64,000 nucleotides of DNA from Oscillospiraceae bacterium NTUH-002-81 (GTDB lineage: Bacteria > Bacillota > Clostridia > Lachnospirales > Lachnospiraceae): the NCBI GenBank assembly GCA_032620915.1, contig CP136052.1, positions 2,084,501 through 2,148,500 on the forward strand, written 5' to 3'. This document shows positions 3,008 through 58,324 of this stretch, piece by piece. Each line of letters opens with the position of its first letter. The stretch's first letter is position 1. A program made the position numbers and the translations under genes. The notes under the pieces are model-generated. The model was not told the origin of the DNA, made no database searches, and saw only the letters and a list, made by a program, of their open reading frames with translations.

Positions 3008-3178
3008 AAGATACCAGAAGATTGCTCCGTGTTTCACACTCCCGCAATCTTCGCCCACATTCGCATATCGTGCAGCTTACGCCGCACTTTTATGCTCATA
3101 TGTGGGGCGGGGCATAAAGTCTTAAAATCACTTTTGTGCAAGCACATCGTGATTTTAGACTTTTTCCCCTGGTATCTT
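3008..3178. repeat. GATACCA-family structured repeat, copy A
   Basis: A 171-bp intergenic element between rex and nnrDE, bounded by a perfect 10-bp inverted repeat (AAGATACCAG / CTGGTATCTT). Inside are three hairpins: AGATTGC/GCAATCT; a GTGC/GCAC stem flanked by the family core CATAT...ATATG; and a long one, AAAGTCTTAAAATCAC/GTGATTTTAGACTTT, with GTGC/GCAC at its tip. The same layout recurs at 3993, 11168, 52541 and 58160. No reading frame of note crosses it. The rest of the 2929-3244 gap holds only the leader of nnrDE. Confidence 0.8.
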
Positions 3179-3244
3179 ATATATAAAACGACGTATCAGA
3201 TTTCCCCGCCCTGGGTGCTTCTGATACGTCTCTTCTTCCTGATC

Positions 3245-3916
3245 TTATTGTTCCGATCCTGAACTTTTGATAAACATGCTTGTACGATAAGACAGCTTCA
3301 TCAGACTTTCCGACAGATGAACATTCTCTACAACGACATTCTCAATCGTATGTAAATCAATATTGGCAAAATTCCAGATTCCTTTGATACCATACGTAAC
3401 GAGCAGCTTCGCCATATCCTCTGCTTTGGACTTAGGAACCGTCAGCGCCGCGATCTCAATCTTATTGTCCCGGATAAATGCCTCCACCTCATCGATCATG
3501 CGGATCTCGATGCCTCTGACCGTATTGCCGATCAGACGCGGGTTCACATCAAAAATACCCTTGATCATCAGACCCTTCTTTTCAAACTCCACATAGTTAG
3601 CCAGAGCCTGTCCCAGATTACCGGCTCCTACGATGATGATATTGTGTTCCCGGTCAAGACCGAGGATCTTACCGATCTCCTCAAAGAGATACTGCACATT
3701 ATACCCGTATCCCTGCTGCCCAAAACCGCCGAAATTATTCAAATCCTGTCGAATCTGAGATGCGGTCACCTGCATGCGCTTGCTCAGCTCATTGGATGAT
3801 ATTCGTTCTGTCCCTTCTTCCAGTAAATCCTGAAGATAACGATAATATCTGGGCAAACGTGCAATCACTGCTTTGGATATTTCTTTTGATTCCACAGATT
3901 CGGCCTCCTTATACAA
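3245..3916 (-). CDS. rex: Redox-sensing transcriptional repressor Rex
   Basis: A 223-residue repressor that senses the NADH/NAD+ ratio and controls fermentation and reduction genes. It has an N-terminal winged helix (RLPRYYRYLQDLLEEGTERI, then QIRQDLNNFGGFGQQGYGYNV, residues about 16-80) and a Rossmann domain with GAGNLGQALANY (about 97-108). The C-terminal helix that swaps between subunits is present (NVHLSESLMKLSYRTSMFI). Length and motifs are normal. It is transcribed away from the ABC-F gene, from a consensus promoter at 3927-3955. Confidence 0.96.
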   Translation of the reverse strand: MYKEAESVESKEISKAVIARLPRYYRYLQDLLEEGTERISSNELSKRMQVTASQIRQDLNNFGGFGQQGYGYNVQYLFEEIGKILGLDREHNIIIVGAGNLGQALANYVEFEKKGLMIKGIFDVNPRLIGNTVRGIEIRMIDEVEAFIRDNKIEIAALTVPKSKAEDMAKLLVTYGIKGIWNFANIDLHTIENVVVENVHLSESLMKLSYRTSMFIKSSGSEQ

Positions 3917-3918
3917 TG

Positions 3919-4002
3919 CTGGTATTATTATAACGAAATGTTAATTTAATGTCAAATATTCTGTTGTTTTTTCTTTGTATTTCGTTATAATAATGATACC
4001 AG
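3919..4002. promoter_or_regulatory. Near-palindromic divergent promoter region between rex and the ABC-F gene
   Basis: Two arms, ATTATTATAACGAAAT (3924-3939) and its exact reverse complement (3979-3994), surround about 39 bp. The match continues outward as CTGGTA / TACCAG with one extra base. Each arm contains a TATAAT-10 box: the left one serves rex. The right one (TATAAT 3986-3991, with TTGTTT at 3964-3969, spacer 16) points to the ABC-F gene. The right arm runs directly into repeat copy B. Confidence 0.6.
3927..3955 (-). promoter_or_regulatory. Sigma-A promoter of rex
   Basis: Read on the minus strand: TTGACA (3955-3950), a 17-nt spacer, then TATAAT (3932-3927), 11 nt upstream of the rex start. 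The spacer holds TTAAATTAAC, a weak resemblance to a Rex half-site, so autoregulation is possible but not shown. Confidence 0.75.
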
Positions 4003-4164
4003 GGTCTAAAGGTCTAAATCCACATGAGCTTGCTCATCGGTGAATGAAAGACCTTGAGCCCCGCCCCAATATGAGCATAAAAGTGGGATGCTCATCCCAC
4101 GATATGCGAATATGGGGCCCAGAATTGTGAAAGTGCAACGCACGAAACAATTCGCGGGTATCAT
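3993..4164. repeat. GATACCA-family structured repeat, copy B
   Basis: A 172-bp copy bounded by ATGATACC (3993-4000) and GGTATCAT (4157-4164), in the opposite orientation to copy A. Hairpins: AAGGTC/GACCTT enclosing CCAC and GAGCTTGCTC; GTGGGAT/ATCCCAC; and AATTGT/ACAATT. It begins two bases after the-10 box of the ABC-F promoter, so it would form nearly the whole 5' leader of that mRNA. Confidence 0.8.
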
Positions 4165-4203
4165 ATGTTATCTAGTGCCATCTATCGCACCACGGAGGTT
4201 TTT

Positions 4204-6136
4204 ATGATTTTATCCTGTCAGAATATATGCAAATCCTTTTCCGGCAAGGACGTTTTATGCGACGTTTCCTTCCATATTGAAGATAAAGAAAAAGCTGCCA
4301 TCGTCGGCATCAACGGCGCGGGCAAGACCACCCTGCTGAAAATCATCTTAAAAGAGCTGTCTGCCGACAGCGGCGAGGTCATCCTCTCCCGGGGCAGAAC
4401 CATCGGCTATCTGGCCCAGCATCAGGCGGTGCTGGAGACCAACAGCATTTACGACGAGCTCATGTCTGTGAAGCAGGACGTGCTGGATCTGGAGACGGCC
4501 ATCCGCGCCACCGAGCAGCAGATGAAGGACGCTTCCGGGGAACGGCTGGAACAGCTGATGAACCGCTATTCCTCGCTGTCCCACGAATATGAACAGAAGA
4601 ACGGTTACGCCTGCCGCAGCGAGGTCACCGGCGTGCTGAAAGGTCTGGGATTTGAGGAAGCAGACTTCCACCGGCCCGCAGCCGAGTTATCCGGCGGCCA
4701 GAAGACCCGGGTGGCACTGGGCAAGCTTCTGTTATCCCGCCCGGACATCCTCATCCTGGACGAGCCCACCAACCATCTGGACATGGACTCCATCGCCTGG
4801 CTGGAAACGTACCTGACCAACTATGACGGCGCCGTTCTCATCGTGGCCCACGACCGGTATTTCCTTGACCGGGTGGTGACAAAGATCATCGAGATTGAAA
4901 ACGGACACGCCATGATGTTCCAGGGCAATTACACCGCTTACGCCCAGAAAAAGGCCATGATCCGGGACGCCCAGATGAAGGCTTACTTAAACCAGCAGCG
5001 GGAGATCCGCCATCAGGAGGCGGTCATCGAGAAGCTGCGCTCCTTCAACCGGGAAAAATCCATCAAACGGGCGGAAAGCCGGGAGAAAATGCTGGACAAG
5101 ATCGAAGTGCTGGATCGCCCCACAGAGGTCAACGACCAGATGCACCTGACACTGGAGCCGGAGCGCATCAGCGGCAACGACGTGCTCACCGTGGAAAATC
5201 TGTCCAAATCCTACCCGCCCCTGACCCTTTTTTTCTCATCTGGATTTCCAGATCAAGCGGGGAGAAAAGGTTGCCATCATCGGCAATAACGGCACGGGCA
5301 AGACCACGATCCTGAAGATTTTAAACGGCCTTGTCTCCCCGGATACCGGTACCGTCCGGCTGGGCTCCAACGTGGAGATCGCCTACTACGACCAGGAGCA
5401 CCATGTATTACATATGGAAAAAACACTGTTCGAGGAAATTTCCGACGCTTACCCGAACATGGACAACACCCGCATCCGCAACGTGCTGGCAGCATTTCTG
5501 TTCACCGGGGATGATGTGTTCAAGCGGATCAAAGACTTGAGCGGCGGCGAACGGGGTCGTGTTTCCCTGGCAAAGCTCATGCTCTCCGAAGCCAATTTTC
5601 TCATTTTGGACGAGCCCACCAACCATCTGGACATCACCTCCAAGGAAATCCTGGAATCGGCGTTGAACAGCTACACCGGCACCGTCCTGTACGTGTCCCA
5701 CGACCGGTATTTCATCAACAAGACGGCCACCCGCATTCTGGAACTCACCGGCCAGACGCTGATCAACTACATTGGCAACTATGACTATTATCTGGAGAAA
5801 AAAGAGGAGCTGACCCGCATTCATCTGGGGGACAGCCAGACCGCTGCCACCGCCGCTGTTTCCACCGCGGACACGGAAGCCAAGCTGGACTGGAAACAGC
5901 AAAAGGAAGAACAGGCCCGCTTGCGGAAAATCCAGAATGACCTGAAAAAGACAGAAACCGAGATTGAACGGCTGGAAAGCCGGGAGGCGGAGATTGACGA
6001 GCTCATGACCCAGGAAAGCGTATTCACCAACGTGGCGGAATGCATCAAGCTCAACAAAGAAAAGGAAGAAATTGCAGAACAGCTGCTCTCTCTCATGGAA
6101 CAATGGGAGGAATTGAGCGAGCAGGCCGCACAGTAA
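4204..6136 (+). pseudogene. ABC-F family ATPase, frameshifted
   Basis: ABC-F proteins are soluble twin-ATPase translation factors that act at the ribosomal E site; some protect against antibiotics. The start at 4204 follows GGAGG. The first cassette has Walker A GINGAGKTT, signature LSGGQKTRVALGKL and DEPTNHLDM. The second has GNNGTGKTT, LSGGERGRVSLAKL and DEPTNHLDI. A charged linker and a C-terminal coiled coil (about residues 560-640) complete the roughly 644-residue protein. A run of seven T at 5228-5234 shifts the frame between the two cassettes: one reading ends at 5289 and the other reopens before 5372. Removing one T restores TLFSHLDFQIKRGEKVAII. Which ABC-F subfamily it belongs to is not clear. 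Confidence 0.9.
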
Positions 6137-6148
6137 AAATAAAGAAAT

Positions 6149-6193
6149 AACGACCATACAAGAGTCATATTGTTCTTGTGTGGTCGTTTTCTT
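6149..6193 (+). terminator. Rho-independent terminator, probably bidirectional
   Basis: AACGACCATACAAG (6149-6162) pairs with CTTGTGTGGTCGTT (6175-6188), followed by a T-rich tract. It sits between the convergent ABC-F and ZIP genes, and the minus-strand reading also ends in U-rich sequence. Confidence 0.85.
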
Positions 6194-6199
6194 ATTATC

Positions 6200-6977
6200 T
6201 TATCCCAGTGCCACGTCCAGCACCATCATCACAGAAAATCCCACGGCAAAGAAAACCGTTCCGATATCGGAATGCACGCCCTCGGACATTTCCGGGATCA
6301 GCTCTTCCACCACCACATACAGCATGGCGCCTGCCGCGAAGCTCAACAGATACGGCAGCGCCGGGACGATAAGTCCTGCAGCCAGAATGGTCAGCACCGC
6401 GCCGATGGGCTCCACAATGCCGGAAAGGACACCGCCTAGGAACGCCCGTCCCTTGCTCATCCCCTCCGCTCGCAGCGGCATGGAAATGATGGCGCCCTCC
6501 GGGAAGTTCTGGATGGCGATGCCCAGCGACAAGGCCAGCGCCCCGGCAGCGGTAATCTGGGCGCTGCCGGACCGATACCCGGCATATACCACACCCACGG
6601 CCATGCCCTCGGGAATGTTGTGCAGCGTCACGGCCAGCACCATCATGGTTGTCCGCTCCAGCTGGCTTTTCGGCCCCTCGGCCTGGGTGCTGTTCTGATG
6701 CAGATGGGGGATGATGTGATCCAGCAGCAGCAAAAACAGAATGCCGATCCAGAAGCCCACCGCCGCCGGAACGAAGGCCCATTTTCCCCATCCCGGCGGA
6801 CTGCTCCATGGCCGGGATCAGAAGGCTCCACACAGAAGCCGCCACCATGACCCCGGCGGCAAACCCGGTCAGGGCCCGCTGTACCCGGTCACTTAAGGCT
6901 TTTTTCATGAAAAATACGCAGGCTGCGCCCAGCGCCGTGCCCAGAAAAGGAATGGCAATTCCATAAAAGATTTCCAT
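6200..6977 (-). pseudogene. ZIP-family metal (zinc) transporter, frameshifted
   Basis: A membrane importer of zinc or other divalent metals of the ZupT/GufA type. The N-terminal part ([20 protein letters not shown], then [21 protein letters not shown]) is in one frame. The rest, with the transport motifs [11 protein letters not shown] and [19 protein letters not shown] and five or so helices, is in another (open from 6760). The shift comes from AAAA instead of AAA at 6782-6785 (TTTT on the plus strand). Correcting it gives [19 protein letters not shown] and a normal protein of about 258 residues. Probably functional in the organism if the run is a sequencing error. Confidence 0.88.
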
Positions 6978-7005
6978 GCAGTGATCTCCTACTGATCAAA
7001 ATATT

Positions 7006-8214
7006 TTAGTTCATCGCATCATAGGTTGCCCGGATTGCCTTGATAAAATCCGCGCTGTTTAAAACTTTCACATCAAGAAGCGTGGTGATCAGTGCCAGAT
7101 CCTTGGTCATCTTGCCGTCCTCAATGGTCTGGATCGTTGCTTTTTCCAGCTTATCGGCAAAATCCATTAGCGCCGCATTGCCGTCCAGCTCGCCGCGCTT
7201 GCGAAGCGCCCCTGTCCAGGCAAAGATCGTTGCCACCGAGTTGGTGGATGTCTCCTCCCCTTTCAGGTGCTTGTAGTAATGGCGCTGCACGGTACCGTGG
7301 GCCGCCTCATACTCATAATACCCTTCCGGAGATACAAGCACAGAGGTCATCATGGCCAGAGAACCAAAAGCAGTAGCCACCATGTCGCTCATCACATCGC
7401 CGTCATAGTTTTTGCAGGCCCAGATATAGCCGCCCTCGGAGCGGATCACCCGTGCCACCGCATCGTCGATCAGCGTGTAAAAATATTCGATACCGGCTGC
7501 CTTGAATTTTTCATCATACTCCGCATCGTAAATCTCCTGGAAAATATCCTTGAAGGTGTGGTCGTATTTCTTGGAAATGGTATCCTTCGTTGCAAACCAC
7601 AGATCCTGCTTCGTATCCAGTGCAAAATTGAAACAGCTTCTGGCAAAGCTTTCGATGGAGGCATTCACATTGTGCATACCCTGGATGATGCCCGGGCCGT
7701 CAAATTCATGGATGGTCTCCCGCATTTCTGTCCCGTCAGCCGCAGTAAATACCAGCTCCGCCTTTCCGGCGCCCGGCACCTTCATCTCCGTTGCCTTGTA
7801 CACATCGCCGTACGCATGACGGGCAATGGTGATGGGCTTCTTCCAGGTGCGCACCGTGGGCTCAATGCCTTTCACCACGATAGGTGCACGAAAAACAGTG
7901 CCGTCCAGAATGGCGCGGATCGTTCCATTGGGGCTCTTCCACATTTCCTTCAGATTATATTCTGTCATACGGGCAGCGTTGGGGGTGATGGTGGCACATT
8001 TAACCGCAACACCGTATTTTTTCGTTGCCAGCGCGGAATCCACCGTCACCTGATCGTCGGTCTCATTGCGGTGCTCCAGACCCAGATCATAATACTCTGT
8101 TTTCAGATCAATATAAGGCAGCAGCAGCTCGTCCTTGATGATTTTCCACAGGACACGGGTCATCTCATCTCCGTCCATTTCCACAAGCGGGGTGGTCATT
8201 GTAATCTTGTCCAT
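7006..8214 (-). CDS. icd: NADP-dependent isocitrate dehydrogenase
   Basis: A 402-residue enzyme of the eukaryote-like NADP-IDH branch ([22 protein letters not shown]; substrate loop [39 protein letters not shown]). It oxidatively decarboxylates isocitrate to 2-oxoglutarate, making NADPH. The start at 8214 is chosen because AGGAGG lies 8 nt upstream; the frame is open further upstream but lacks family similarity there. It is the last gene of an operon with the putative Re-citrate synthase and a GntR regulator. In an anaerobe this oxidative half-cycle mainly supplies glutamate. No aconitase gene is in the window. Confidence 0.95.
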
Positions 8215-8233
8215 AAAAGCAAATCCTCCTGTT

Positions 8234-8905
8234 TTATTTAATGCCTTTTTGCTGGATATTATGTATCGTGTTGATAATGTGCTCTTTTGCCAGCTGTTCT
8301 GCCAGATCCGGGTCGTGGGCCTCGATGGCCTCCAGAATCCGCCGGTGCTCATGGGTGGAAGCGCCTGCCCGCACATTGGTGGACACGGAACGCTTTCTGG
8401 CCCGCTGGACATAATGGTGATAGTCTGATAACAGATGGTGCAGCTGTTTGCTGCCGGAAGCCTCATACATCAGCTCATGAAACTTGCTGTCCATCTCGAA
8501 TACTTTTTCAAAATTGCCGTGGGCGGCATGGAACTCCGCCAGCATCAGCACCTCCTGCAGGTCTGCCAGCTGCTCCTCTGTGATCTTCTCCGCCGCAAGT
8601 CTTGCGCTTAAGCCCTCCAGCCGGGAACGGATCATATAGATATCCTGGATATCTTCCTGGGAAATGCCCTTCACATAGGCGCCCTTGTTGGGGATGATAT
8701 ACACCAGATCTTCCAGCTCCAGCTGCCGCAGCGCTTCCCGTACCGGAGTTCTGCTAACACCCAGGGATTTGCCGATGGCAATCTCCCGCAATTCCTCATC
8801 CGGCTCATACCGGCCGTTCAGAATATCCTCCCGGATCCGATGATATACTCTGCCTCTCAGGGTAAAACTGTCCGGGCTCTCCTCCGGCATGGTGTACGCA
8901 CTCAC
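8234..8905 (-). CDS. GntR-family transcriptional regulator (FCD domain)
   Basis: A 223-residue FadR-type regulator. The N-terminal winged helix contains the classic [20 protein letters not shown] (about residues 49-68). It is followed by an all-helical FCD ligand domain with the metal-binding pattern (D and H residues in [17 protein letters not shown] and YHHYVQRAR...EHRRILEAI). It overlaps the upstream synthase gene by 4 nt and precedes icd by 19 nt, so it is embedded in the pathway operon. It probably binds the perfect palindrome at 10340-10361 in front of the operon. The effector is unknown; an organic acid such as citrate or 2-oxoglutarate would fit. Confidence 0.93.
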
Positions 8906-10320
8906 TCTGTCTGTTCTCCTTCCACGATGGTCACGCCCAGTTCCTGACAGACCCGATCGATGACAACCTCCAGCTCCTCATCGGTAATGGCAGTCACACG
9001 GCCGCCCTCATACTCGGCGTCCACCCATTCTTTTACTTTTGCCACCAGCGGAGACGTCTTACTTACCTGCCGATCGCCTTTCAGATGATAATAGGTGTTC
9101 ATCCAGTGGGCAATGCCTGCCAGACCGGAAGTATTGGACACAGCCACCAGTACCGGCCGGTTCAGGAACTTTTCTGTATCAAAAATGTTATAAATTTCCT
9201 CGTTTTTCAAAAGACCATCCGCATGAATGCCCGCCCGGGTCACGTTAAAGTTCTTGCCCACAAACGGCGTCCGTGGCGGCAGGGTGTAGCCAATCTCTTT
9301 TTCGTAATACTCTGCCATCTCGGTGATCACCCGCGTATCCATGCCATCCAGGGTGCCGCGCAGCTGGGCATACTCAAACACCATGGCCTCCAGCGGGGTA
9401 TTGCCGGTACGCTCGCCGATGCCGAACAGGGAACAGTTGACACCGCTGGCGCCGTACAGCCATGCGGTGGTGGAGTTGGAAACCGCCTTGTAAAAATCAT
9501 TGTGGCCGTGCCACTCGATCCACTCGGAAGGCACACCGGCATGGGTCGTCAGGCCGTAAATAATGCCCTGGACAGAACGGGGGATCACAGCACCCGGATA
9601 ATTGACGCCGTATCCCATGGTGTCACAGGCACGTACCTTGATGGGCATGTTATACTCCCGGCTCAGTTTCATCAGTTCACAGCAGAACGGAATCACATAG
9701 CCGTAAATATCCGAACGGGTGATATCCTCCAGATGGCACCGGGGAATGATACCCGTCTCCAGGCAGTCACGGATGACGCTTAAGTAGCTCTCCATGGCCT
9801 GTTTTCTCGTCATTTTCATCTTATAGAAAATATGGTAGTCAGAACAGCTGACCAGCACGCCGGTCTCCTTCAGTCCCAGGTCACGGACCAGTTCGAAATC
9901 CTTCTTGCTGGCCCGGATCCAGCTGGTGATCTCCGGGAACTGGTATCCCCGCTCCATACATTTATAAACCGCATCCCGGTCCTTCTTGCTGTATAAGAAA
10001 AATTCGCACTGGCGGATCTTGCCATTGGGGCCGCCCAGGCGGTGCATGTAATCATAAAGAGTCACGATCTGCTCCGTGGAATACGGGGCTCTGGACTGCT
10101 GTCCGTCGCGGAAGGTCGTATCCGTGATCCATATCTCCTCCGGCATATTGTGGGGCACAATACGGTCATTGAATGCAATCTTCGGGACTTCCTCATAAGG
10201 AAACAGGTTGCGGAACACGTTCGGTGTCGGCACGTCTGCCAGATAATACATATGCTCTTCGAGTTCCAGTAAATTCGTCTTTTTGTTAAGCTTCACAGGT
10301 CTGTTTTCCACTGCAGCCAC
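8902..10320 (-). CDS. Putative Re-type citrate synthase (HMGL/isopropylmalate-synthase-like)
   Basis: A 472-residue member of the DRE-TIM lyase-like superfamily: ITDTTFRDGQQSRAPYS (about residues 67-83) carries the metal-binding aspartate, and EWHGHNDFYKAVSNS has the HxH metal site. Homologs are often labelled homocitrate or isopropylmalate synthase. The long N-terminal extension and co-transcription with isocitrate dehydrogenase instead fit Re-citrate synthase as in Clostridium kluyveri, which condenses acetyl-CoA and oxaloacetate in strict anaerobes. No LeuA-type regulatory domain or leu/lys genes are nearby. Superfamily membership is seen; substrate choice is inferred from context. Confidence 0.75.
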   Translation of the reverse strand: MAAVENRPVKLNKKTNLLELEEHMYYLADVPTPNVFRNLFPYEEVPKIAFNDRIVPHNMPEEIWITDTTFRDGQQSRAPYSTEQIVTLYDYMHRLGGPNGKIRQCEFFLYSKKDRDAVYKCMERGYQFPEITSWIRASKKDFELVRDLGLKETGVLVSCSDYHIFYKMKMTRKQAMESYLSVIRDCLETGIIPRCHLEDITRSDIYGYVIPFCCELMKLSREYNMPIKVRACDTMGYGVNYPGAVIPRSVQGIIYGLTTHAGVPSEWIEWHGHNDFYKAVSNSTTAWLYGASGVNCSLFGIGERTGNTPLEAMVFEYAQLRGTLDGMDTRVITEMAEYYEKEIGYTLPPRTPFVGKNFNVTRAGIHADGLLKNEEIYNIFDTEKFLNRPVLVAVSNTSGLAGIAHWMNTYYHLKGDRQVSKTSPLVAKVKEWVDAEYEGGRVTAITDEELEVVIDRVCQELGVTIVEGEQTE

Positions 10321-10339
10321 TCCTTTGTATCTTAGATGT

Positions 10340-10361
10340 GTATAATTGTATACAATTATAC
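10340..10361. promoter_or_regulatory. Perfect 22-bp palindromic operator upstream of the citrate synthase-gntR-icd operon
   Basis: The half-site GTATAATTGTA is followed directly by its exact reverse complement. The core TTGTATACAA matches the style of FCD-type GntR operators. It lies 19 nt upstream of the first gene of the operon that encodes such a regulator, which suggests autoregulation. Confidence 0.8.
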
Positions 10362-10433
10362 GTTATCCGTCAATACTAAATTTTTATAGCAACATAAAAT
10401 TATTCCACGCGAATATACGAACGCACTGTACTC

Positions 10434-10471
10434 AAAAAATGCAGCTGATGGATCATCTCCACCGGCTGCAT
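10434..10471 (-). terminator. Terminator overlapping the end of the DUF1653 gene
   Basis: On the minus strand ATGCAGC (10471-10465) pairs with GCTGCAT (10445-10439), followed by six T. The stem starts within 20 nt upstream of the stop codon, so the hairpin overlaps coding sequence. Confidence 0.75.
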
Positions 10472-11136: not shown

Positions 11137-11167
11137 GTATTTTCCTCTTTTCTGCTATAATATATAC

Positions 11168-11385
11168 GATGCTAGGGTCAAAAGGTCTAAGCCCACATGA
11201 GCTTGCTCATAAGTGGGTGAAAGACCTTGGGACCCGCCCCCGATATGAGCATAAAAGCGGGATGATAATCCCACGATATGCGAATAGCGAGGTGCTATGT
11301 GCCGGTGGCACATGTTTAGCACCGACCGAAGCGGAGCGGAGACCGGATTGTGGGAGTGCGTGGCACGGAACAATCCGCAGGCATC
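11168..11385. repeat. GATACCA-family structured repeat, copy C (with extra hairpin)
   Basis: A 218-bp copy ending in GATGC/GCATC, between the subtilisin stop (11399) and the DUF1653 start. It keeps the three family hairpins (AAGGTC/GACCTT enclosing CCCAC/GTGGG and GAGCTTGCTC; GGGAT/ATCCC; GGATTGT/ACAATCC). It also carries an additional one near 11300-11330: GGTGCTA/TTAGCACC with TGTGCC/GGCACA at its tip. The extra arm accounts for its greater length. Confidence 0.75.
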
Positions 11386-11398
11386 AACATCATAATGT

Positions 11399-12286: not shown

Positions 12287-12370
12287 CTTGCCTCCGGGTT
12301 CCTTCTCTCACTGCTATAGTATGCCGAAAATCCCAAAACGCCTGTCGCTATCTTACCAATTCTTCCTCTT

Positions 12371-12451
12371 CATTCGCATATCATCACATGTCCCAATTTC
12401 TTTCGCTCACTTACATGCAAGCATGTGTGAGCTCAGATCTTTGCACTCTGA
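12371..12451. repeat. Degenerate GATACCA-family repeat, copy D
   Basis: Keeps the family core ATTCGCATATC and the third hairpin (GCTCAC...ACATGC AA GCATGT..GTGAGC) but has lost the GATACCA ends and the middle stem. It lies between deoD and the subtilisin gene. The rest of this 190-bp gap shows nothing else. Confidence 0.55.
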
Positions 12452-12474
12452 TTTCCTCTCATCTGGCTGCCGCA

Positions 12475-20846: not shown

Positions 20847-20893
20847 CATCTCCTGAATTGCTGTAGCAACAGATGAAAACAAAATAGGAGGTG
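20847..20893 (+). promoter_or_regulatory. Translational expression platform of the THF riboswitch
   Basis: CATCTCCT (20847-20854) can pair along its whole length with the ribosome binding site AGGAGGTG (20886-20893), with one G-U pair, just before the folT start. This fits ligand-controlled access of the ribosome; no T-run terminator is present. Confidence 0.65.
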
Positions 20894-20902
20894 TCTTTTT
20901 CT

Positions 20903-21466
20903 ATGGAAAAAACTGTCAGTCTTTTTACCCGTTCCATGCATGACTTCCGCAAAACCCGCTGTCTTGCAGTGACGGCCCTGCTCATTGCCATGAACGTCTC
21001 CCTGGATCTTCTGGGACTCTCCATCAAGATCCCGCCGAATCTGCGGATCGGTTTTGGTTTTCTGTGCAATGCTTCCATCGGTATGCTCTTCGGCCCTGCC
21101 GTAGGCATGTTCAGCGGCATCTGCACCGATGTGCTCGGCTATTTTGCCGGAAATATGTCCATGGGCGCCTATTTCCCGGGATACACCCTGACCGCCATGG
21201 TGGCCGGGCTCATCTGGGGCTTCTGGCTGTACCCGAACAAACCGACCCTGCCCCGGATCATCGGCGCTAAGGTATGCATTAACCTGTTCTGCAACATCGG
21301 TCTGAATACGCTGTGGCTGACTATCACCGGCGGCAAGGCCATGTCTGTGCTCCTGGCAGCCAGAATTCCCAAGAACATTCTGATGCTTCCCATCGAGATC
21401 CCGCTGGCGTACATTGTTTTACGGCAGGTGTCCCGGATTTATCAGTATTCTTTTAAAGAAAACTAA
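20903..21466 (+). CDS. folT: Folate-specific ECF transporter S component
   Basis: A 187-residue membrane protein with about six helices. The N-terminal CLAVTALLIAMNVSLDLLGL and GMLFGPAVGMFSGICTDVLGYFAG are typical of S components of energy-coupling-factor importers, and the folate type is supported by the THF riboswitch directly upstream. It would pair with a shared EcfAAT module, which is not in the window. The ATG at 20903 is preferred (AGGAGGTG 10 nt before it) over an in-frame GTG that lies within the ribosome site. Confidence 0.92.
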   Translation: MEKTVSLFTRSMHDFRKTRCLAVTALLIAMNVSLDLLGLSIKIPPNLRIGFGFLCNASIGMLFGPAVGMFSGICTDVLGYFAGNMSMGAYFPGYTLTAMVAGLIWGFWLYPNKPTLPRIIGAKVCINLFCNIGLNTLWLTITGGKAMSVLLAARIPKNILMLPIEIPLAYIVLRQVSRIYQYSFKEN

Positions 21467-29644: not shown

Positions 29645-29840
29645 AATCTACAATTGCATAGAATAAATGGCTTCCGCATAGGAGGTTTGTTTGTCATGCC
29701 TGAAATTGATTTCTTGAATAAAAAAACTTTTACCAAAACACCCAGTATGATAAACTTAAGGAAAAGAGCAACGATTGAATCCCCATAGCTATCGGCTAAA
29801 GGGACGCGACTTTGTTCACCAAGGTAAAATCGAAATTGAT

Positions 29841-29896
29841 GTAAACGAAAGGGCAGTTTTTATCAGAACTCAAGGCTGCTTTTTCGTTTACACCAA
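29841..29896. terminator. Long hairpin downstream of the IS91-type element
   Basis: GTAAACGAAA..GCAG (from 29841) pairs with CTGC..TTTCGTTTAC (to 29894) around a loop of about 18 nt. It could be a terminator or a folded element end. Confidence 0.55.
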
Positions 29897-29936
29897 CTCC
29901 GATTGTTTCCTTAACAGTTTATCAGAAAGCATTTAG

Positions 29937-51100: not shown

Positions 51101-52451
51101 CGATTTTACCCAGGGCAGTATTTTGAAAAAGCTATCCATGTTCATGCTCCCCGTGCTGGGAGCCCTGGTGCTGCAGGCGGCCTACGGTGCAGTTGATCTG
51201 CTGGTGGTGGGCCAGTTCGGATCGACTGCCGGACTTTCCGCCGTCTCCACCGGCAGCCAGGTGATGAATCTGGTGACCTTTGTCGTCACTCAGCTTTCCA
51301 TGGGTGTCACCGTGCTCATCGCCCGCTATCTGGGTGAAAAACGACCGGCGCTGATCGGTGCGGTGCTGGGCGGCGCTGCCATTGTGTTCACCATCCTCTC
51401 CGCTGGTATGTTTGTCCTGCTGGTGGGCTTTGCCCATCCCATCTCCGTTCTCATGCAGGCGCCGGCAGAGGCCATCCAGCTTACCGTCAGCTACGTGCGT
51501 ATCTGCGGCGGCGGCATTTTGTTCATCGTTGCCTACAACCTGCTGGCAGCCATTTTCAGAGGCCTGGGGGACAGCCGCTCTCCGCTGCTCTTTGTGCTGG
51601 TGGCCTGCATCGTCAACATCGCCGGAGATCTGCTCCTGGTGGCAGGCTTTCACATGGACGCCGCCGGTGCAGCCATCGCCACAGTGGCCGCCCAGGCTAT
51701 CAGCGTCGTTCTGGCCATCAGCCTGCTCATCAAAAAGAAGATGCCCTTTACCATCCGGCGGGAAGATTTCCGCCTGAATCCCCAGTGCCGGAAGTTTCTC
51801 GGCATCGGCCTGCCTCTGGCACTGCAGGAATTCCTGACCCAGCTTTCCTTTCTGGCACTGTGTGCCTTTGTCAACCGACTGGGGCTGACGGCATCTTCCG
51901 GATACGGTGTCGCCTGTAAAATTGTCAATTTTGCCATGCTGATCCCCAGCGCCCTTATGCAGTCCATGGCTTCCTTTGTAGCCCAAAATGTAGGTGCCGG
52001 TAATGAGAAACGAGCCAGAAAAGCCATGTTCACCGGCATTGGGCTGGGACTGATGTTCGGCTGTGCCGTCTTTGTTCTGGTGCTGTGCAAAGGGGACGTT
52101 CTTGCCGGTATCTTCTCCCCGGATGCCGAAGTGGTACAGAAAGGCTTCGAATATCTGAAAGGCTTCGCACCGGAAACCATTCTGACAGCTATCCTGTTCA
52201 GCATGGTAGGCTATTTCAACGGCAACAACCAGACGCTTTGGGTCATGATCCAGGGACTGGTACAAACGCTCCTCATCCGTCTGCCCATGGCATATTGCAT
52301 GAGCATGCAGCCCAATGCCAGCCTGACGAAAATCGGGCTCTCCGCTCCCACCTCCACGCTGGTTGGCATTGTGCTGAATGTGGGGTACTATCTCTACTGG
52401 AGCCGCAAAAACAAAGAGGCTGCTCCTGCCGCTTCGGCATCTACATCATAA
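51093..52451 (+). CDS. MATE family efflux transporter
   Basis: A 452-residue 12-helix exporter (NNDFTQGSILKKLSMFMLPV LGALVLQAAYGAVDLLVVGQF; SVSTGSQVMNLVTF; ASFVAQNVGAGNEKRARKAM). Starts inside the end of the marR gene. By context a drug-type antiporter under MarR control; substrate unknown. Ends with a polar tail (KNKEAAPAASASTS). A terminator follows at 52475. Confidence 0.94.
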   Translation: MNNDFTQGSILKKLSMFMLPVLGALVLQAAYGAVDLLVVGQFGSTAGLSAVSTGSQVMNLVTFVVTQLSMGVTVLIARYLGEKRPALIGAVLGGAAIVFTILSAGMFVLLVGFAHPISVLMQAPAEAIQLTVSYVRICGGGILFIVAYNLLAAIFRGLGDSRSPLLFVLVACIVNIAGDLLLVAGFHMDAAGAAIATVAAQAISVVLAISLLIKKKMPFTIRREDFRLNPQCRKFLGIGLPLALQEFLTQLSFLALCAFVNRLGLTASSGYGVACKIVNFAMLIPSALMQSMASFVAQNVGAGNEKRARKAMFTGIGLGLMFGCAVFVLVLCKGDVLAGIFSPDAEVVQKGFEYLKGFAPETILTAILFSMVGYFNGNNQTLWVMIQGLVQTLLIRLPMAYCMSMQPNASLTKIGLSAPTSTLVGIVLNVGYYLYWSRKNKEAAPAASASTS

Positions 52452-52474
52452 AATCACTTCATAAAAATACAGAC

Positions 52475-52524
52475 AAAAGGCCGCCAGGCACTGTTCTCAT
52501 TCGCAGTACCTGACGGCCACTTTA
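52475..52524 (+). terminator. Terminator after the MATE gene
   Basis: GGCCGCCAGGCACTG pairs, with three mismatches, with CAGTACCTGACGGCC, followed by ACTTTATT. Confidence 0.75.
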
Positions 52525-52540
52525 TTACAATTCATTCTCC

Positions 52541-52709
52541 ATGACACCATCAAATTGTTCCGTGCTTCGCACTCTCACAATTTTTCCATCATTCGCATAT
52601 CGTGAAGCTATCGCTTCCCTTTTATGCTCATGTCGGGGCGTGCACCAAGTTCTTCCGCCCATCTGCATGCAAGCATGCGCGGGCTCAGACCTTTGTACAC
52701 TGGTATCAT
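52541..52709. repeat. GATACCA-family structured repeat, copy E
   Basis: A 169-bp copy with ends ATGACACCA (52541) and TGGTATCAT (52701-52709), abutting the thrS stop at 52711. Hairpins: AAATTGT/ACAATTT with GTGC-TTC-GCAC inside; AAGC/GCTT within the CATAT...ATG core; and a third with CTGCATGC/GCATGCGCG. Orientation as in copy A. Confidence 0.8.
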
Positions 52710-52710
52710 C

Positions 52711-54612
52711 TTACTTCTTCTCTTCTGTTTCTTTCTTTACCCGGGCCATGAACTCGTCCAGGCTCATGGTCAGTGTCTCGCCGGAATCCCGCAGACGAAC
52801 GGATACGGTGTTGTCCTCTTCCTCTTTTGCTCCAAGAACAAGCATGTACGGCACCTTCTCCATCTGTGCCTCGCGGATCTTGTAACCGATCTTCTCGGAA
52901 CGGGTATCGAACTCTGTGCGGATGTGGTTTACTTTCAGGGTACGGTATACCTTCTCGGCATAATCGCTGGTCTTGTCAGAAATCGGCAGTACCTTTGCCT
53001 GTACCGGAGCCAGCCATACCGGGAATTTGCCGGCATAGTGCTCGATGAGGATACCGATGAAACGCTCGATGGAACCGAATACCACGCGGTGGATCATGAT
53101 CGGGCGGTGTTTCAGGCCGTCAGCACCCATGTACTCTGCCTCAAACCGCTGGGGCAGCTGGAAGTCCAGCTGGATGGTGCCGCACTGCCACGTTCTGCCG
53201 ATGGAATCCTGCAGATGGAAGTCGATCTTCGGGCCGTAGAAGGCACCGTCTCCCTCGTTTACCACGTAAGGAAGGTTCATCTCTTCCAGGGCACGGCGCA
53301 GGCCTTCGGTAGCCAGCTCCCAGTCCTCATCGCTTCCCATGCTGTCTTCCGGACGGGTGGACAGCTCTACGTGATATTTGAAACCGAACAGACTGTAAAC
53401 CTCGTCGATCAGGCGGACAACGCCCTTGATCTCATCGGTGATCTGCTCTTTGGTCATGAAGATATGGGCATCATCCTGGGTAAAGCAGCGCACACGCATC
53501 AGGCCGTGGAGCTGACCGGATTTTTCATGACGGTGTACCAGGCCAAGCTCTCCCATACGGATCGGCAGATCTCTGTAGGAACGGGGCTGGGACTTGTATA
53601 CGAGCATGCCGCCCGGGCAGTTCATGGGTTTTACCGCAAAATCGGTATCGTCGATGACGGTGGTGTACATATTTTCTTTGTAGTGATCCCAGTGACCGGA
53701 GGTCTCCCACAGCTGACGGTTCAGCATGATCGGGGTGGAAATCTCCACGTAGTCCTCCCGGTTATGGATCTCTCTCCAGTAATCGATCAGGGTGTTTTTC
53801 AGCACCATGCCCTTGGGAAGGAAGAACGGGAAGCCCGGGCCCTCCTCCATCAGGGCGAAGATACCAAGCTCCTTGCCCAGCTTTCTGTGGTCACGCTTCT
53901 TTGCTTCCTCGATACGGGTCAGGTATTCCTCCAGCTCAGAAGCCTTTGTATAGGAAATACCGTAAATTCTCGTGAGCATCTTGTTTTTCTCATTGCCTCT
54001 CCAGTAAGCACCTGCCAGGCTGGTGAGCTTGAAGGCTTTTACCGGTTTGGTGGTCATCAGGTGCGGGCCTGCACACAGATCTACATACTCGCCCTGTCTG
54101 TAAAAGCTGATCTCTGCGTCCTCCGGCAGATCCTCGATGAGCTCTACCTTGTAAGGCTCCTCCTTCTCCTGCATGAACTTAATGGCCTCATCTCTCGGCA
54201 GGGTGAAGCGCTCCAGAGCCAGGTTCTCTTTCACGATCTTCTTCATCTCTGCTTCCAGAGCGGTCAGATCATCTGCGGTAAAGGAATCCGGACGGTCAAA
54301 GTCATAGTAAAAGCCCTCTGCGATAGACGGACCGATGGCCAGCTTCGTCTCCGGGAACAGACGCTTCACTGCCTGTGCCAAAATGTGGGATGTGGTATGC
54401 CAGAATGCAGCCTTTCCCTCCTGGTCATCAAAGGTATGCAGCACCAGGGTGCTGTCCTTGTCGATCACGGTACGGATGTCCACGCCCTCGCCGTTTACGG
54501 TTGCTGCACAGACATTTCTTGCAAGTCCTTCGCTGATATCTTTTGCGATATCAATGACAGCCATGGGCTGAGCATATTCGCGGACACTTCCATCTTTCAG
54601 TGTTACTTTCAT
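52711..54612 (-). CDS. thrS: Threonyl-tRNA synthetase
   Basis: A 633-residue class II synthetase. Domains in order: TGS (MKVTLKDGSVREYAQPMAVI), the second additional domain with HTTSHILAQAVKRLFP (editing zinc site), catalytic core with motif 2 (RCFTQDDAHIFMT) and motif 3 (GSIERFIGILIEHYAGKFPV WLAPVQ), and the anticodon-binding domain. Start ATG 54612 (AAAGGAG 9 nt upstream) is preferred to the in-frame ATG at 54648. Controlled by a T-box leader and its own promoter at 55041-55069. Confidence 0.97.
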   Translation of the reverse strand: MKVTLKDGSVREYAQPMAVIDIAKDISEGLARNVCAATVNGEGVDIRTVIDKDSTLVLHTFDDQEGKAAFWHTTSHILAQAVKRLFPETKLAIGPSIAEGFYYDFDRPDSFTADDLTALEAEMKKIVKENLALERFTLPRDEAIKFMQEKEEPYKVELIEDLPEDAEISFYRQGEYVDLCAGPHLMTTKPVKAFKLTSLAGAYWRGNEKNKMLTRIYGISYTKASELEEYLTRIEEAKKRDHRKLGKELGIFALMEEGPGFPFFLPKGMVLKNTLIDYWREIHNREDYVEISTPIMLNRQLWETSGHWDHYKENMYTTVIDDTDFAVKPMNCPGGMLVYKSQPRSYRDLPIRMGELGLVHRHEKSGQLHGLMRVRCFTQDDAHIFMTKEQITDEIKGVVRLIDEVYSLFGFKYHVELSTRPEDSMGSDEDWELATEGLRRALEEMNLPYVVNEGDGAFYGPKIDFHLQDSIGRTWQCGTIQLDFQLPQRFEAEYMGADGLKHRPIMIHRVVFGSIERFIGILIEHYAGKFPVWLAPVQAKVLPISDKTSDYAEKVYRTLKVNHIRTEFDTRSEKIGYKIREAQMEKVPYMLVLGAKEEEDNTVSVRLRDSGETLTMSLDEFMARVKKETEEKK

Positions 54613-54668
54613 TTCAAAAATCTCCTTTCCTTTCTCTAACAGGGCCATGCATTCTATACTCAGGTATT

Positions 54669-54742
54669 GATTACCAGAGGATTCCTCCGCTGCTTACATG
54701 CAAGCATGACGCAGTGTCCGGACTGTGACACTGGTAATCAAA
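54669..54742. repeat. Miniature GATACCA-family element in the thrS leader
   Basis: A 74-bp hairpin-forming element with an 11-bp inverted repeat (TTGATTACCAG / CTGGTAATCAA) and an inner CATGC/GCATG stem. Its right half (CATGCAAGCATG ... ACTGGTAATC) resembles the third arm of copy E. It sits between the T-box terminator and the thrS ribosome site. Confidence 0.6.
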
Positions 54743-55034
54743 AAGCGCCCTCAAACGGATGCTTCCATCCGTTCAAGGGCGCATATGCACGGTTCCACCT
54801 TGTCTTTTTACTCAAATCTTCCCTTAACGCGGGCCACGGCAGCGCTTCCCCCGGCTCTCCCGGCTTCCTGCTGCAGCTTCGGACTGGTCTTCCCAACGGC
54901 CTTACATGGGATGACTTCCAGCTACTGTCTTCCCTCTCTGTCTGCACGTGCCGATGCTACTCGTTCCTTCACAGCTTTTCTCGTGTAAGATCACAATATC
55001 GTGTGTATAACCACACTTTCCTGTGATCAGATTC
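54740..55034 (-). promoter_or_regulatory. T-box riboswitch controlling thrS
   Basis: On the minus strand the leader contains stem I elements (GAACGAGTAGC, CAGAGAGGGAAGACAG), then the T-box sequence AAGGTGGAACCGTGC (54802-54788). Next comes a terminator GCGCCCTTGAACGGATGG / CCATCCG..AAGGGCGC with TTTTT (54782-54740). Uncharged tRNA-Thr would stabilise the antiterminator. Confidence 0.92.
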
Positions 55035-55040
55035 TTTCTT

Positions 55041-55069
55041 ATCTTATGCCTGCCGCACCGTTTTGTCAA
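55041..55069 (-). promoter_or_regulatory. Sigma-A promoter of thrS
   Basis: Minus strand TTGACA (55069-55064), 17-nt spacer, TAAGAT (55046-55041). The-35 box overlaps the stop codon of the histidine kinase gene. Confidence 0.8.
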
Positions 55070-57291
55070 GGGTTTTTCTGCTGAAATACCACAATGGCCT
55101 TGAACAGATCGCCGTCGATCTCGATATCCAGGGTGCCGCCCTGCAGCTCCACAAAGCTGGAGGCAATGGCCAGACCCAGACCGCTGCCCTCGGTGTTCCG
55201 GGACAGGTCGCCCCGGACGAACCGCTCGGTGATCTCCCGGGGATCGAAGTTCAGCTCCGCTGCGGAAATATTTTTCATGGTGACAACCACCTGGCCACCG
55301 TCCATACATTTCAGGTCAATGTACACCCGGGAACGGGGCAGCGCGTATTTCACAATGTTGGTGAGCAGGTTGGAGAACACCCGATAAGTCTTCTGACTGT
55401 CCAGCGTCAGGATCACCTTCTCCTCCGGCAGTGACCAGCGGAAATCCAGGCCGGAGGCGTTCAGCTTATCCTCCATCTCAAAACGCACCTGCTTCAACAG
55501 GTTCACGATATCCACCTGGTTGAAATTCATGGTCACGTTATTGGTGGTGGCCTTGCTGATCTCAAACAGATCCTCGATGAGCACCTTCAGCCGCTGGGAT
55601 TTCCGCGCCAGAATGTCCACGTAGGACTTGCGCTCCTCCTCGGTAAGATTGTCCTGCCCCAGCAGATCCACGTAGGTAATGATAGCTGTCAGCGGCGTTT
55701 TCAGATCGTGGGACACGTTGGTGATGAGCTCCGTCTTCATCTTCTGGCTCTTCACCTCTTCCGCCACCGCCTGCCGGAAGCCCTGCTGGATATGGGACAG
55801 CTCCTCGTGCAGCGGTTCAAAGATGCCCACATCCCGGGACAGCGCCTGGTTCAGGTCCCCGGCTGCCATGCCCCGCACCCAGCCAAGCACCGCCTGATAA
55901 TCCTTTCGGATGCCGGTAAAATACCGCCGCAGCCATAAAAACAGGAAGATAGAATAAATCACGACCCCGAAAATGCCGCCAAACCACATGGTACACAAGA
56001 TAGCCACCACTGCGCCGTTGACCAGCACGATTTTCCAGATCGAGCGACTCATGTTTTCCGTCAGATCCACATCCGTCACATAAGCAGCAAACCGTTTTCC
56101 CTGCCGCTTGATAAAGGGGAAAAACCGGTAAATGAGGCTGTATTTTTTCACATAAGCCACCGGCCCCAGGCTGCCCACAGGCACGATGCAGGATGCGCTG
56201 ACAAACCAGGTGCCAAACACCAGCACCCAGCACAAAAAGTTGATGGCGCCGCCCGTCAGCATATCGATGTTGCTCCAGCTGCCCTCCAGATAGGAGATCA
56301 TCATATCCAGCATACCTTCGTACAGGCTGATACAGATACACAGCCCGGCAAAGGACACCTCCAACGGCAGATGAAAGAGCCAGTGGTTGTGAAATGCATA
56401 GGTTTCCCTGCGCATAAAGAGCACAGCCGCCACGGCCACCCCCGCCAGAAGCAGGACATAAAGCATCGGGAAAATCCCGGAGGAATAGCTGTTATACATG
56501 GTCACATAAGTGTCCCACGCTGCATCCGCCGACAGGGTATTAAATCCGTAAAACACCCGCATATTCACCGGATACTGCACGGAAAGCTCCGTCACATCTG
56601 TATTTTCCAGAAAATCATTGATCATCCGGTCAAACCGTCCGGCGTGGGCCAGATCCTGGAACTCCCGGTAAAAGCTCTTCGTGGACACCCCTGCACTTCC
56701 GGACACCGTCACATCGCCGGTATCGCTGTAGTCCAGACAGATCCAGCCGCTGTACAGGGAGGCAAGCTCCGTCATCTGGCTTTCTGTCCGCTTCGTCTCA
56801 TCCACATAATTTTTCAGCACATCCCGGTGCTCTGCCACATTGCTCACCACCTGGCCAGTGGCCGTATCCATGGCCAGATAGTCCACATTGGCACTCAGGT
56901 TGCTGTAGCTGTTTTCCATATTGATCAGCACATTTTTCAGAGCGCTGTAGCACGCATTTCCAGCCACCTCATCCATGGAGGCCAGATCCTTCCCCGGAAG
57001 AAAAATATCCGACTCCGTCAGTGTGCTGTCTTTTTTCTTCTGCAGGTCTTCGTATAACACATAACCGCTGTCATATATGTAGCCAGTGTCCTCAGACGAT
57101 ATCTCATAGCCATCCTCATCCCGGGAAACCGCCGTATCTGTCACGGCAGCCATCGAGCCGACATCGCCTCTGTGTTTGGCAAAATACGGGTAAAAGCACA
57201 GCATCACCACCGCCGGAACCAGCGCCGCCAGCAGCGCATAGAGCATTCCCTTTTTTCCCTTCTCAGGGCTGTTTTTCCATCTTGTATCCAA
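55066..57291 (-). CDS. Sensor histidine kinase with large extracellular and multi-helix membrane region
   Basis: About 741 residues. One helix (MLYALLAALVPAVVMLCFYP), an outside domain of about 230 residues, then four more helices (MLYVLLLAGVAVAAVLFM; FHLPLEVSFAGLCICISLYE; INFLCWVLVFGTWFVSASCI; NGAVVAILCTMWFGGIFGVV). The catalytic part has the phospho-His in LITNVSHDLKTPLTAIITYV and the ATP site with GLAIASSFVELQGG. Signal unknown. The TTG start at 57291 (LDTRWKNSPEK) overlaps the response regulator; an ATG at 57246 is an alternative. Confidence 0.9.
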   Translation of the reverse strand: MDTRWKNSPEKGKKGMLYALLAALVPAVVMLCFYPYFAKHRGDVGSMAAVTDTAVSRDEDGYEISSEDTGYIYDSGYVLYEDLQKKKDSTLTESDIFLPGKDLASMDEVAGNACYSALKNVLINMENSYSNLSANVDYLAMDTATGQVVSNVAEHRDVLKNYVDETKRTESQMTELASLYSGWICLDYSDTGDVTVSGSAGVSTKSFYREFQDLAHAGRFDRMINDFLENTDVTELSVQYPVNMRVFYGFNTLSADAAWDTYVTMYNSYSSGIFPMLYVLLLAGVAVAAVLFMRRETYAFHNHWLFHLPLEVSFAGLCICISLYEGMLDMMISYLEGSWSNIDMLTGGAINFLCWVLVFGTWFVSASCIVPVGSLGPVAYVKKYSLIYRFFPFIKRQGKRFAAYVTDVDLTENMSRSIWKIVLVNGAVVAILCTMWFGGIFGVVIYSIFLFLWLRRYFTGIRKDYQAVLGWVRGMAAGDLNQALSRDVGIFEPLHEELSHIQQGFRQAVAEEVKSQKMKTELITNVSHDLKTPLTAIITYVDLLGQDNLTEEERKSYVDILARKSQRLKVLIEDLFEISKATTNNVTMNFNQVDIVNLLKQVRFEMEDKLNASGLDFRWSLPEEKVILTLDSQKTYRVFSNLLTNIVKYALPRSRVYIDLKCMDGGQVVVTMKNISAAELNFDPREITERFVRGDLSRNTEGSGLGLAIASSFVELQGGTLDIEIDGDLFKAIVVFQQKNP

Positions 57292-57977
57292 CTCCCCCAC
57301 ACCACCTTTAAATATTTGGGCTCCCGCGGATTGATCTCGATCTTTTCCCGGATATTCCGCACATGAACCATGATCGTGTCGGTGTTCACAGCACGCTCGT
57401 TCCAGATTCTTTCATAGATCTCATCTGCCGAAAACACCCGTCCAGGATTTTTCATGAGAAGCAGTAAAATTTTGAACTCCATAGGCGTCATTTTCACCGG
57501 CTGGCCATCCACCTTCAGCTCCACCGTTTCCTCGTTGAGTTCCAGACCGCCAATGGTGTACACATGTTCATTGGCCACCTCCGTCTTTCCCTTCACCATT
57601 TCCAGAAACCGCTTGTAGCGCCGCAGCTGAGAATTCACCCGGGCCAGAAGCTCCAATGGCGTAAAAGGCTTGGTCACGTAATCGTCCGCCCCCATATTCA
57701 GCCCCATGATCTTATCGACCTCCTCTGATTTGGCCGAAAGCATGATCACCGGAAAATCATATTTCTCCCGCAGCTTCATCACCATGGTGATGCCGTCCAT
57801 CACCGGCATCATCACATCCACGATGGCCAGATGAATTTCTTCCTTACTTATAATATCCAGCCCTTCCTGACCGTTGGCCGCCTTAAATACGTGATATCCC
57901 TGACTGACAAGGTAAATGCCGATGCCGTCCCGGATCTCCTGGTCATCCTCTACCACACAAACATTGTATGCATCCAT
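57204..57977 (-). CDS. OmpR/PhoB-type response regulator (3' frameshift)
   Basis: Receiver domain with acidic pocket VVEDDQE, phospho-acceptor in HLAIVDVMMPVMDGI and KPFTPLELLARV, then a winged-helix DNA-binding domain (MTPMEFKILLLLMKNPGRVF SADEIYERIW ... DTIMVHVRNIREKI). The family-typical end (KYLKVVWGVGYKMEKQP) is lost by one extra G in a five-base run (57294-57298, C on plus), so the written frame runs to 57204 instead of about 57263. It is encoded directly upstream of the sensor kinase and overlaps it. Confidence 0.93.
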   Translation of the reverse strand: MDAYNVCVVEDDQEIRDGIGIYLVSQGYHVFKAANGQEGLDIISKEEIHLAIVDVMMPVMDGITMVMKLREKYDFPVIMLSAKSEEVDKIMGLNMGADDYVTKPFTPLELLARVNSQLRRYKRFLEMVKGKTEVANEHVYTIGGLELNEETVELKVDGQPVKMTPMEFKILLLLMKNPGRVFSADEIYERIWNERAVNTDTIMVHVRNIREKIEINPREPKYLKVVWGSWIQDGKTALRREKRECSMRCWRRWFRRW

Positions 57978-58104
57978 TTTTGTTCTCCCCTCTGCTGTTC
58001 AATCCTGCTTATTATAGCATGCCCGGAAGCTTCTGCATACGTTTGTCCGGTCATCTTTTTCCTGAACAAGGCCAGTATAACGTCTAAATCGTAAAAACGA
58101 ATAT

Positions 58105-58142
58105 AGAAAAATCCAAAGAATTTCTAAAGAAGTTCTTTGGAT
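58105..58142 (-). terminator. Terminator downstream of the DUF362 gene and repeat copy F
   Basis: On the minus strand AATCCAAAGAA and TTCTTTGGATT form an 11-bp stem followed by TTTCT. The DUF362 transcript would pass through repeat F before ending here. Confidence 0.8.
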
Positions 58143-58159
58143 TGCTCGTACATAATTTC

Positions 58160-58324
58160 GATACCATGGATTGTTCCGTGCTTCGCCCTCTCACAATCCA
58201 TCTCCACATTCGCATATCGTGGGATTATCATCCCACTTTTATGCTCATATGGAGGCGGGTCTCAAAGTCCTTCATCCATTTATGAACAAGTTCAAATGGA
58301 TTTGGACCTTTCGCCCCTGGTATC
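58160..58324. repeat. GATACCA-family structured repeat, copy F
   Basis: A 165-bp copy and the cleanest one: ends GATACCA (58160-58166) and TGGTATC (58318-58324); stems TGGATTGT/ACAATCCA, GTGGGAT/ATCCCAC within CATAT/ATATG, and TCCATTT/AAATGGA with GAAC/GTTC at its tip enclosed by AGTCC/GGACC. It overlaps the last 33 bases of the DUF362 gene. Confidence 0.85.

Follow-up and report, generated by a model that had tools for sequence, protein, structure and literature searches.

The 64,000-nucleotide stretch of Oscillospiraceae bacterium NTUH-002-81 analysed here (the window) contains a dispersed family of structured intergenic repeats, which raises the question of whether these are a non-autonomous transposon (MITE), an abundant structured RNA or both. 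The reading we favour, to which we assign a probability of about 0.8, is a MITE of Lachnospiraceae whose internal, RNA-encoding part is the Rfam family RF01699 and whose short copies persist as structured 5′ leaders.

Identity of the repeats in the window

All five full copies in the window belong to RF01699 (Clostridiales-1 RNA), membership being defined by a covariance-model score of at least 48 bits, the gathering score; they reach 88.9–130.8 bits. The copies at 3009–3177, 3994–4163, 52542–52708 and 58159–58325 match model positions 1–166 with E-values of 1.6e-26 to 1.1e-29. The initial annotation had reported no named family and had itself stated that a match to one would count against it; such a match is what we found, and on this point it was therefore wrong. 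Its description of the copies was accurate: all five lie where it had placed them, in both orientations (− at 3009, 52542 and 58159; + at 3994 and 11167), and the anatomy comprises a closing stem, an arm with GCATATCG...TTTTATGCTCATAT and an arm near GATTGT/ACAATC. The decayed copy and the miniature that it had listed were recovered as well, the former below threshold. The features are:

3009–3177, − strand: RF01699 copy, 130.6 bits; right end lost
3994–4163, + strand: RF01699 copy, 119.0 bits; right end lost
11167–11386, + strand: RF01699 copy with extra hairpin, 88.9 + 28.7 bits in two pieces (11167–11324 and 11345–11376)
12326–12456, − strand: decayed RF01699 copy, 26.9 bits, E 0.087, below cut-off
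52542–52708, − strand: RF01699 copy, 122.4 bits; right end lost; immediately follows the thrS stop codon
54669–54742, − strand (from resemblance to arm 1 only): miniature without RNA core, recognised by sequence; between thrS and a weak T-box match
58159–58325, − strand: RF01699 copy, 130.8 bits; right end lost

An additional hairpin between arms 2 and 3 splits the match at 11167–11386, and the ACATCA that follows this copy (11387–11392) is, judged by its letters, probably a remnant of the right end described below. The miniature has the ends TGATTACCAGTG and CACTGGTAATCA and a loop, CATGCTTGCATG, resembling the loop of arm 1; a search with the RF01699 model gave no match there, and it resembles core-less derivatives of 69–71 bp from a relative. 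A weak T-box match (54772–54981, −; 51.7 of 93 bits) lies upstream of thrS (52711–54648, −; TIGR00418, 736 bits), and the miniature, placed between the two, may therefore sit inside a T-box leader.

The same-strand gene after the 3009–3177 copy starts at 2928 (nnr-like, 1411–2928; Carb_kinase and YjeF_N domains), and the next same-strand gene downstream of the 58159–58325 copy encodes a response regulator (57204–57977). The 3994–4163 copy directly follows a TATAAT box (3986–3991), and an ABC-F-like reading frame begins ∼40 nt downstream of the copy, with its ATG at 4204. That frame, which has a single ABC domain, stops at 5289, and a second frame on the same strand follows (5372–6136); the two, within region 4165–6136, are possibly a split gene. 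Two further RNA matches were seen in the window. A THF riboswitch (RF01831, 20722–20834; 85.5 bits, gathering 36) immediately precedes a folate-type ECF transporter S component (20891–21466), and a palindromic weak match to a eukaryotic miRNA family at 29829–29903 (both strands, 34.8 of 90 bits) is probably a chance hairpin.

Distribution across genomes

The 3.62-Mb genome contains 73 RF01699 matches at E ≤ 1e-3, 45 of them over the cut-off, so that the 'hundreds' of copies suggested at first were an overestimate here. Four congeneric genomes hold 73, 42, 4 and 1 matches. Within the family, RF01699 was matched in 83 of 150 genomes and over the cut-off in 64, with at most 17 candidates scored per genome; a phylum survey with stricter filters found it in 4 of 299 genomes, this one included, all in the same family, and none of 14 control genomes (0/14) gave a match. 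Two tandem arrays were seen, one of three RF01699 copies (L039, G000:C1:906547-907068) and one of two (L032, 804164-804448), with units of ∼151–180 bp and each before one reading frame. A phage element was considered and rejected: the exact 20-base 3′ pattern occurred in one viral contig, and since this pattern is narrow the scan shows no more than a rarity of such copies among viral contigs. In a further viral scan, the end of the insertion sequence discussed below matched 13 contigs.

The full element and its target duplications

In other Lachnospiraceae the RF01699 model spans only the first ∼165 nt of a transposon-like element of 184–212 bp with inverted ends of ∼17 bp. A full copy consists of the left end TGATRCCAGGGTCAAAAGG, the closing stem, three arms, the closing strand GGYATCA, a 3′ part and the right end TTTTGACCCCNACATCA, and the 5′ strand of the closing stem is the left end itself. 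In other genomes a short segment, in most cases a hairpin, often comes after GGYATCA and ends in TTTTGACCCCNACATCA, which repeats the left end TGATRCCAGGGTCAAAA in inverted orientation. We assembled 134 copies, 132 of them distinct; three loci among the 29 fetched one per genome from the family survey were left out, L076 and the two that lie near contig ends, L065 and L073. The right end is kept in 57 distinct copies (56 elsewhere, 1 here) and absent in 75 (44 here). Thus 44 of the 45 over-cutoff copies of this genome lack it, and among its 37 best copies it is recognisable in three.

The initial annotation had proposed looking for target duplications; the outcome was positive at full copies in relatives and negative at short copies, including the 44 here. 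Perfect 5-bp flanking duplications were found at 35 of the 57 full-length copies, which share on average 4.04 of 5 flanking bases compared with 2.63 after shuffling (highest shuffle 3.04). For lengths of 4 and 7 bp the means were at background, and for 6 bp the mean (2.19 vs 1.94) was within the highest shuffle. None of the 75 short copies showed a target duplication, and the 37 best copies here, tested at other offsets, gave none either. As it was the RNA model that had located the 57 full copies, we chose 20 further regions in G038, a relative, by end sequences. Seventeen elements were recognised there, 14 of full size, and perfect 5-bp duplications flanked 8 of these 14 as well as one 104-bp deletion derivative. 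The end pattern, at up to one mismatch, matched 209 times in G038 vs 3 times for the reversed control. The target duplicated on insertion is five AT-rich bases.

Smaller forms of 39 bp and 69–71 bp also occur. One of them (L262:2615-2653, G038) is a 39-bp micro-element with little beyond its two ends and AAAAA on both sides. An inverted end pair on contig C13 of G038, taken at first for a 1475-bp transposon, turned out to be a full element plus a 39-bp micro-element; the gene after the full element is, as we take it from its sequence, rsmH-like.

Measured against what is expected of a MITE, the element is too short for a transposase gene (184–212 bp), has terminal inverted repeats in relatives and duplicates its target at full copies, not at the 75 short ones; autonomous relatives with matching ends are four insertion sequences (L326, L327, L342 and L343).

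Candidate partner insertion sequence

Longer elements with the ends TGATGCTGGGGTCAAAA were noticed at contig ends of G057, and an exact search with TGATGCTGGGGTCAAAA matched 8 of 397 family genomes. G279 contains two inverted end pairs, 1856 and 1865 bp apart (L326 and L327), both enclosing a disrupted transposase with DUF772, that of L327 also with DDE_Tnp_1_6; a perfect flanking 5-bp repeat is present at L327, not at L326. In G110 (L343, 1405–3254) matching ends and a 6-bp flanking repeat surround a 550-aa open frame with DUF772 and DDE_Tnp_1_6 over cut-off, and in G118 (L342, 493–2511) matching ends occur with no perfect flanking repeat. Complete insertion sequences with both ends thus number four, of 1.85–2.0 kb, in three genomes (G279, G118 and G110), and two of the four have no perfect flanking repeat. 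The ends are the sole part that they share with the MITE.

A protein search with the transposase gave 2913 relatives among 7998 scored; in the best 120 of the 2913 the named relatives are from Kineothrix sedimenti and Lachnospiraceae. At E ≤ 1e-30, relatives were found in 5 of 150 genomes (G038, G051, G053, G110 and G118). These five all fall within the group of 30 genomes that have 11 or more RF01699 matches; the probability of this by chance, calculated by hand with a threshold chosen afterwards, is ∼2e-4. At the same E-value none was found in the other 25 of these 30 genomes, whose draft assemblies may have lost it, and a close transposase was likewise not found in the genome studied here. 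Both GGGGTC-type ends occur only in G110 and G118 among the five transposase-bearing genomes; in G038 and G051 the ends of the copies are related (GCGTC for GGGTC) or only one is recognisable, and G053 has no clear pair.

In two genomes the insertion-sequence end reads GCT at positions 5–7, and RF01699 copies there also carry GCT with a matching closing strand (in G057 four of the five copies seen, in G279 the single copy seen). Ten genomes picked by such ends or transposases all contained RF01699 (10/10), eight over the cut-off, a test that is partly circular because element ends were among the picking criteria. One genome with insertion-sequence ends (G309) has a single weak RF01699 match. 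A 122-bp solo element with insertion-sequence-like ends (G266, L339:629-750) is perhaps an internal deletion of the insertion sequence. The 1.85–2.0 kb insertion sequence with its DUF772/DDE transposase is probably the mobiliser of the MITE in trans; that its transposase moves the element is suggested by the shared ends in some relatives.

RNA fold and covariation

The 30 best of the 45 over-cutoff copies of this genome were aligned with MAFFT. The fold predicted from this alignment has a closing stem and three arms with 50 pairs, 45 of which show changes on both sides. Pairing was possible in 92.9% of paired cells, compared with 77.1% after shuffling of partners and at most 45.7% after sliding them, and the covariation score was 0.492 vs 0.194 shuffled; these values apply to copies chosen by the RF01699 model and to shuffles that ignore relatedness. 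The closing stem co-varies too, for example as TGATACC/GGTATCA and TTATAACA/TGTTATAA. The paired cells include 64 G·U and 16 A·C, which indicates that the stated strand is the folded one.

Young copies picked by their ends in G038 behaved otherwise than copies picked by the model: 7 of 17 single stem changes kept pairing in the former (chance 0.34) vs 15 of 17 in the latter. The same end-picked copies changed at 17 per 1320 stem sites vs 23 per 528 loop sites. An apparent retention of pairs in young copies of nine genomes (55 kept and 40 broken single changes) was absent from the end-picked set. The nine-genome copies had been chosen by RNA score; the apparent selection is therefore a matter of sampling and was excluded as evidence.

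Gene context and orientation

Orientation was counted on gene calls from a home-made caller. In a first pass over all 45 copies of this genome, 38 were co-oriented with the downstream gene; for the short copies the figure is 37 of 44 (p 5e-6 vs one half), with a single one of the 44 placed between convergent genes. In 23 of the 37 co-oriented short copies the next start follows at a distance of 20–100 nt. Elsewhere, 21 of 30 short copies are co-oriented, as are 31 of 53 full copies (p 0.27 for full copies), and short and full copies differ (Fisher p 0.019). The reading frames downstream of the 45 copies are diverse by eye, presumably including epimerase-like, TrkA-like, tryptophanyl-tRNA-synthetase-like and MurE-like ones, to go by their first residues; no recurrent class of downstream gene, as would be expected of a riboswitch or gene-specific leader, was found. 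A promoter at the left border was considered and set aside as too weak, the best TATAAT-like box lying within 9 nt of the element in 14 of 37 copies here vs 7 of 37 when the reversed flank on the downstream side was used instead.

Congeners are collinear with the window, and the collinear contigs of three of them gave no RF01699 match. At the 3994–4163 locus, G150 has 33 bases vs 200 between conserved blocks (167 bp shorter) and keeps the TATAAT-like box, CTATAATA, as well as the reading-frame start. Flank identity there (84% at Rex, 74% on the opposite side) does not suffice to place the junction to the base. The intervals of the 3009 and 11167 copies are also shorter in G150 and poorly alignable. 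A search for orthologous copies (40 congener loci against our 45) gave three pairs with matching flanks of at least 150 bp. These pairs were meant for a test of in-place compensation, but the two that were inspected, at sites occupied in both G000 and G152, proved to be independent insertions in opposite orientation; one such pair is L021 (G000) and L359 (G152), in a single intergenic region followed by a gene that we take to be TrkA-like.

Weighing the explanations

The initial annotation had offered MITE and structured RNA as alternatives; both receive support together, from MITE features in relatives and one-strand covariation in this genome. We regard mobility in relatives as very probable. 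The short copies here show no target duplication and the search found no close transposase in this genome, so that their mobility is judged from the relatives; that the window copies arose by the same route as the relatives' full copies would then be probable. What we observed directly is the Rfam identity, the inverted ends, the target duplications in relatives, the insertion sequences of some relatives with matching ends, the covariation and the orientation bias. On the proposed mechanism, the transposase of an insertion sequence with the same ends would move the MITE in trans, with duplication of five AT-rich bases on insertion, and copies, which are often located where genes start, would there become part of the transcript as 5′ leaders; transcription of the element is part of this model. 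Loss of the right end would presumably leave a copy immobile with its fold kept. The copies without a right end in this genome, mostly sense and just upstream of genes, could be tolerated or selected as self-contained folded leaders because the downstream ribosome site is left free, and the folded leader may stabilise mRNA. A present role as leader is possible, if doubtful. A bolder version appears rather unlikely: a transposase-mobilised RNA module in which the three-armed RNA would be selected cargo, a ready-made 5′ leader for many unrelated Lachnospiraceae genes, and copies that lost one end would be domesticated, their fold maintained by compensatory changes as the terminal sequences drift. 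In that version the left end would serve both as transposase site and as RNA stem, so that its changes would have to suit both.

The strongest competitor is a plain MITE with no host role, whose fold would be needed for movement or DNA structure and whose orientation bias would reflect survival or preference of older insertions. We give it a minority chance, though not a small one. It would fit the fast turnover among the four congeners (from 73 matches to 1), the two examined sites that are occupied in two species by independent opposite insertions, the full copies without significant orientation bias and the young end-picked copies without an excess of pair-keeping single changes. Yet the stems of those same young copies change less per site than their loops, and the short copies here, despite the lost right end, remain 92.9% paired with many double changes and strongly sense-oriented. 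A true host RNA, either a regulatory leader or a small RNA, whose family merely became repeated and whose mobile features are secondary, would agree with the sRNA listing in Rfam and with the strong covariation and strand asymmetry; the inverted ends and target duplications at full copies weaken this reading, as do the patchy, explosive copy number and the diverse downstream genes, and we hold it to be very improbable. The same low credence goes to a REP-like element that a Y1 transposase (IS200/IS605 or RAYT) would move as a folded single strand of DNA, with the short form here as a mobile unit in its own right. IS200/IS605 elements are not known to make a target duplication, and the co-varying hairpin ends and the absence of duplications from short copies at any tested offset would suit such a mechanism, but the full copies do show 5-bp duplications and have ends in common with a DDE-type insertion sequence.

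On the MITE reading that we prefer, RF01699, listed in Rfam since 2010 with no known function, gains a physical explanation as the inside of a mobile element. The annotation of RF01699 matches in gut genomes would change, and a testable enzyme partner is supplied, together with a model for how structured leaders could be spread across many genes by a transposon. It would be worth looking past the model ends in other high-copy orphan RNA families too. In the open-access literature we found no earlier statement of Clostridiales-1 mobility.

Comparison with known systems

RF01699 and the window copies have the same sequence and structure over a full-length match. Rfam types the family as an sRNA gene, and its model, which stops short of the right end, conceals the inverted ends and is silent on mobility. 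In the account given in PMC2864571, the Clostridiales-1 motif is rated as probably an RNA, probably not cis-regulatory and probably not a riboswitch. The candidate partner shares DUF772 and DDE_Tnp_1_6, both over cut-off, with IS1182-like insertion sequences; NCBIfam gives IS1182 (NF033551) as the best match of the transposase, with 120.6 bits vs a cut-off of 270, and the transposase is therefore related to IS1182 but outside that family. The ISfinder direct repeats for IS1182, as quoted in PMC7335449, are 2–60 bp, a range that permits 5 bp.

Compared by description, the element is closest in kind to small MITE-like repeats of other bacteria. The bcr1–bcr3 repeats of Bacillus cereus are described as abundant, small, MITE-like and often located in untranslated parts of transcripts, bcr3 being associated with longer mRNA half-life (PMC3446304), and they are described as moving in a possibly site-specific manner, with TTTAT as the motif (PMC6542083); they are alike in abundance, size and MITE-like nature and belong to another host group. 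ERIC and Correia/NEMIS are likewise presented as small intergenic MITE-like elements whose folded transcripts affect mRNA processing or stability (PMC2229807). Most of these are, in the same description, long stem-loops (PMC2229807), whereas here a closing stem holds three arms. By analogy with bcr1–bcr3, ERIC and NEMIS, the RF01699 element may work as a small MITE-like repeat carried in transcripts.
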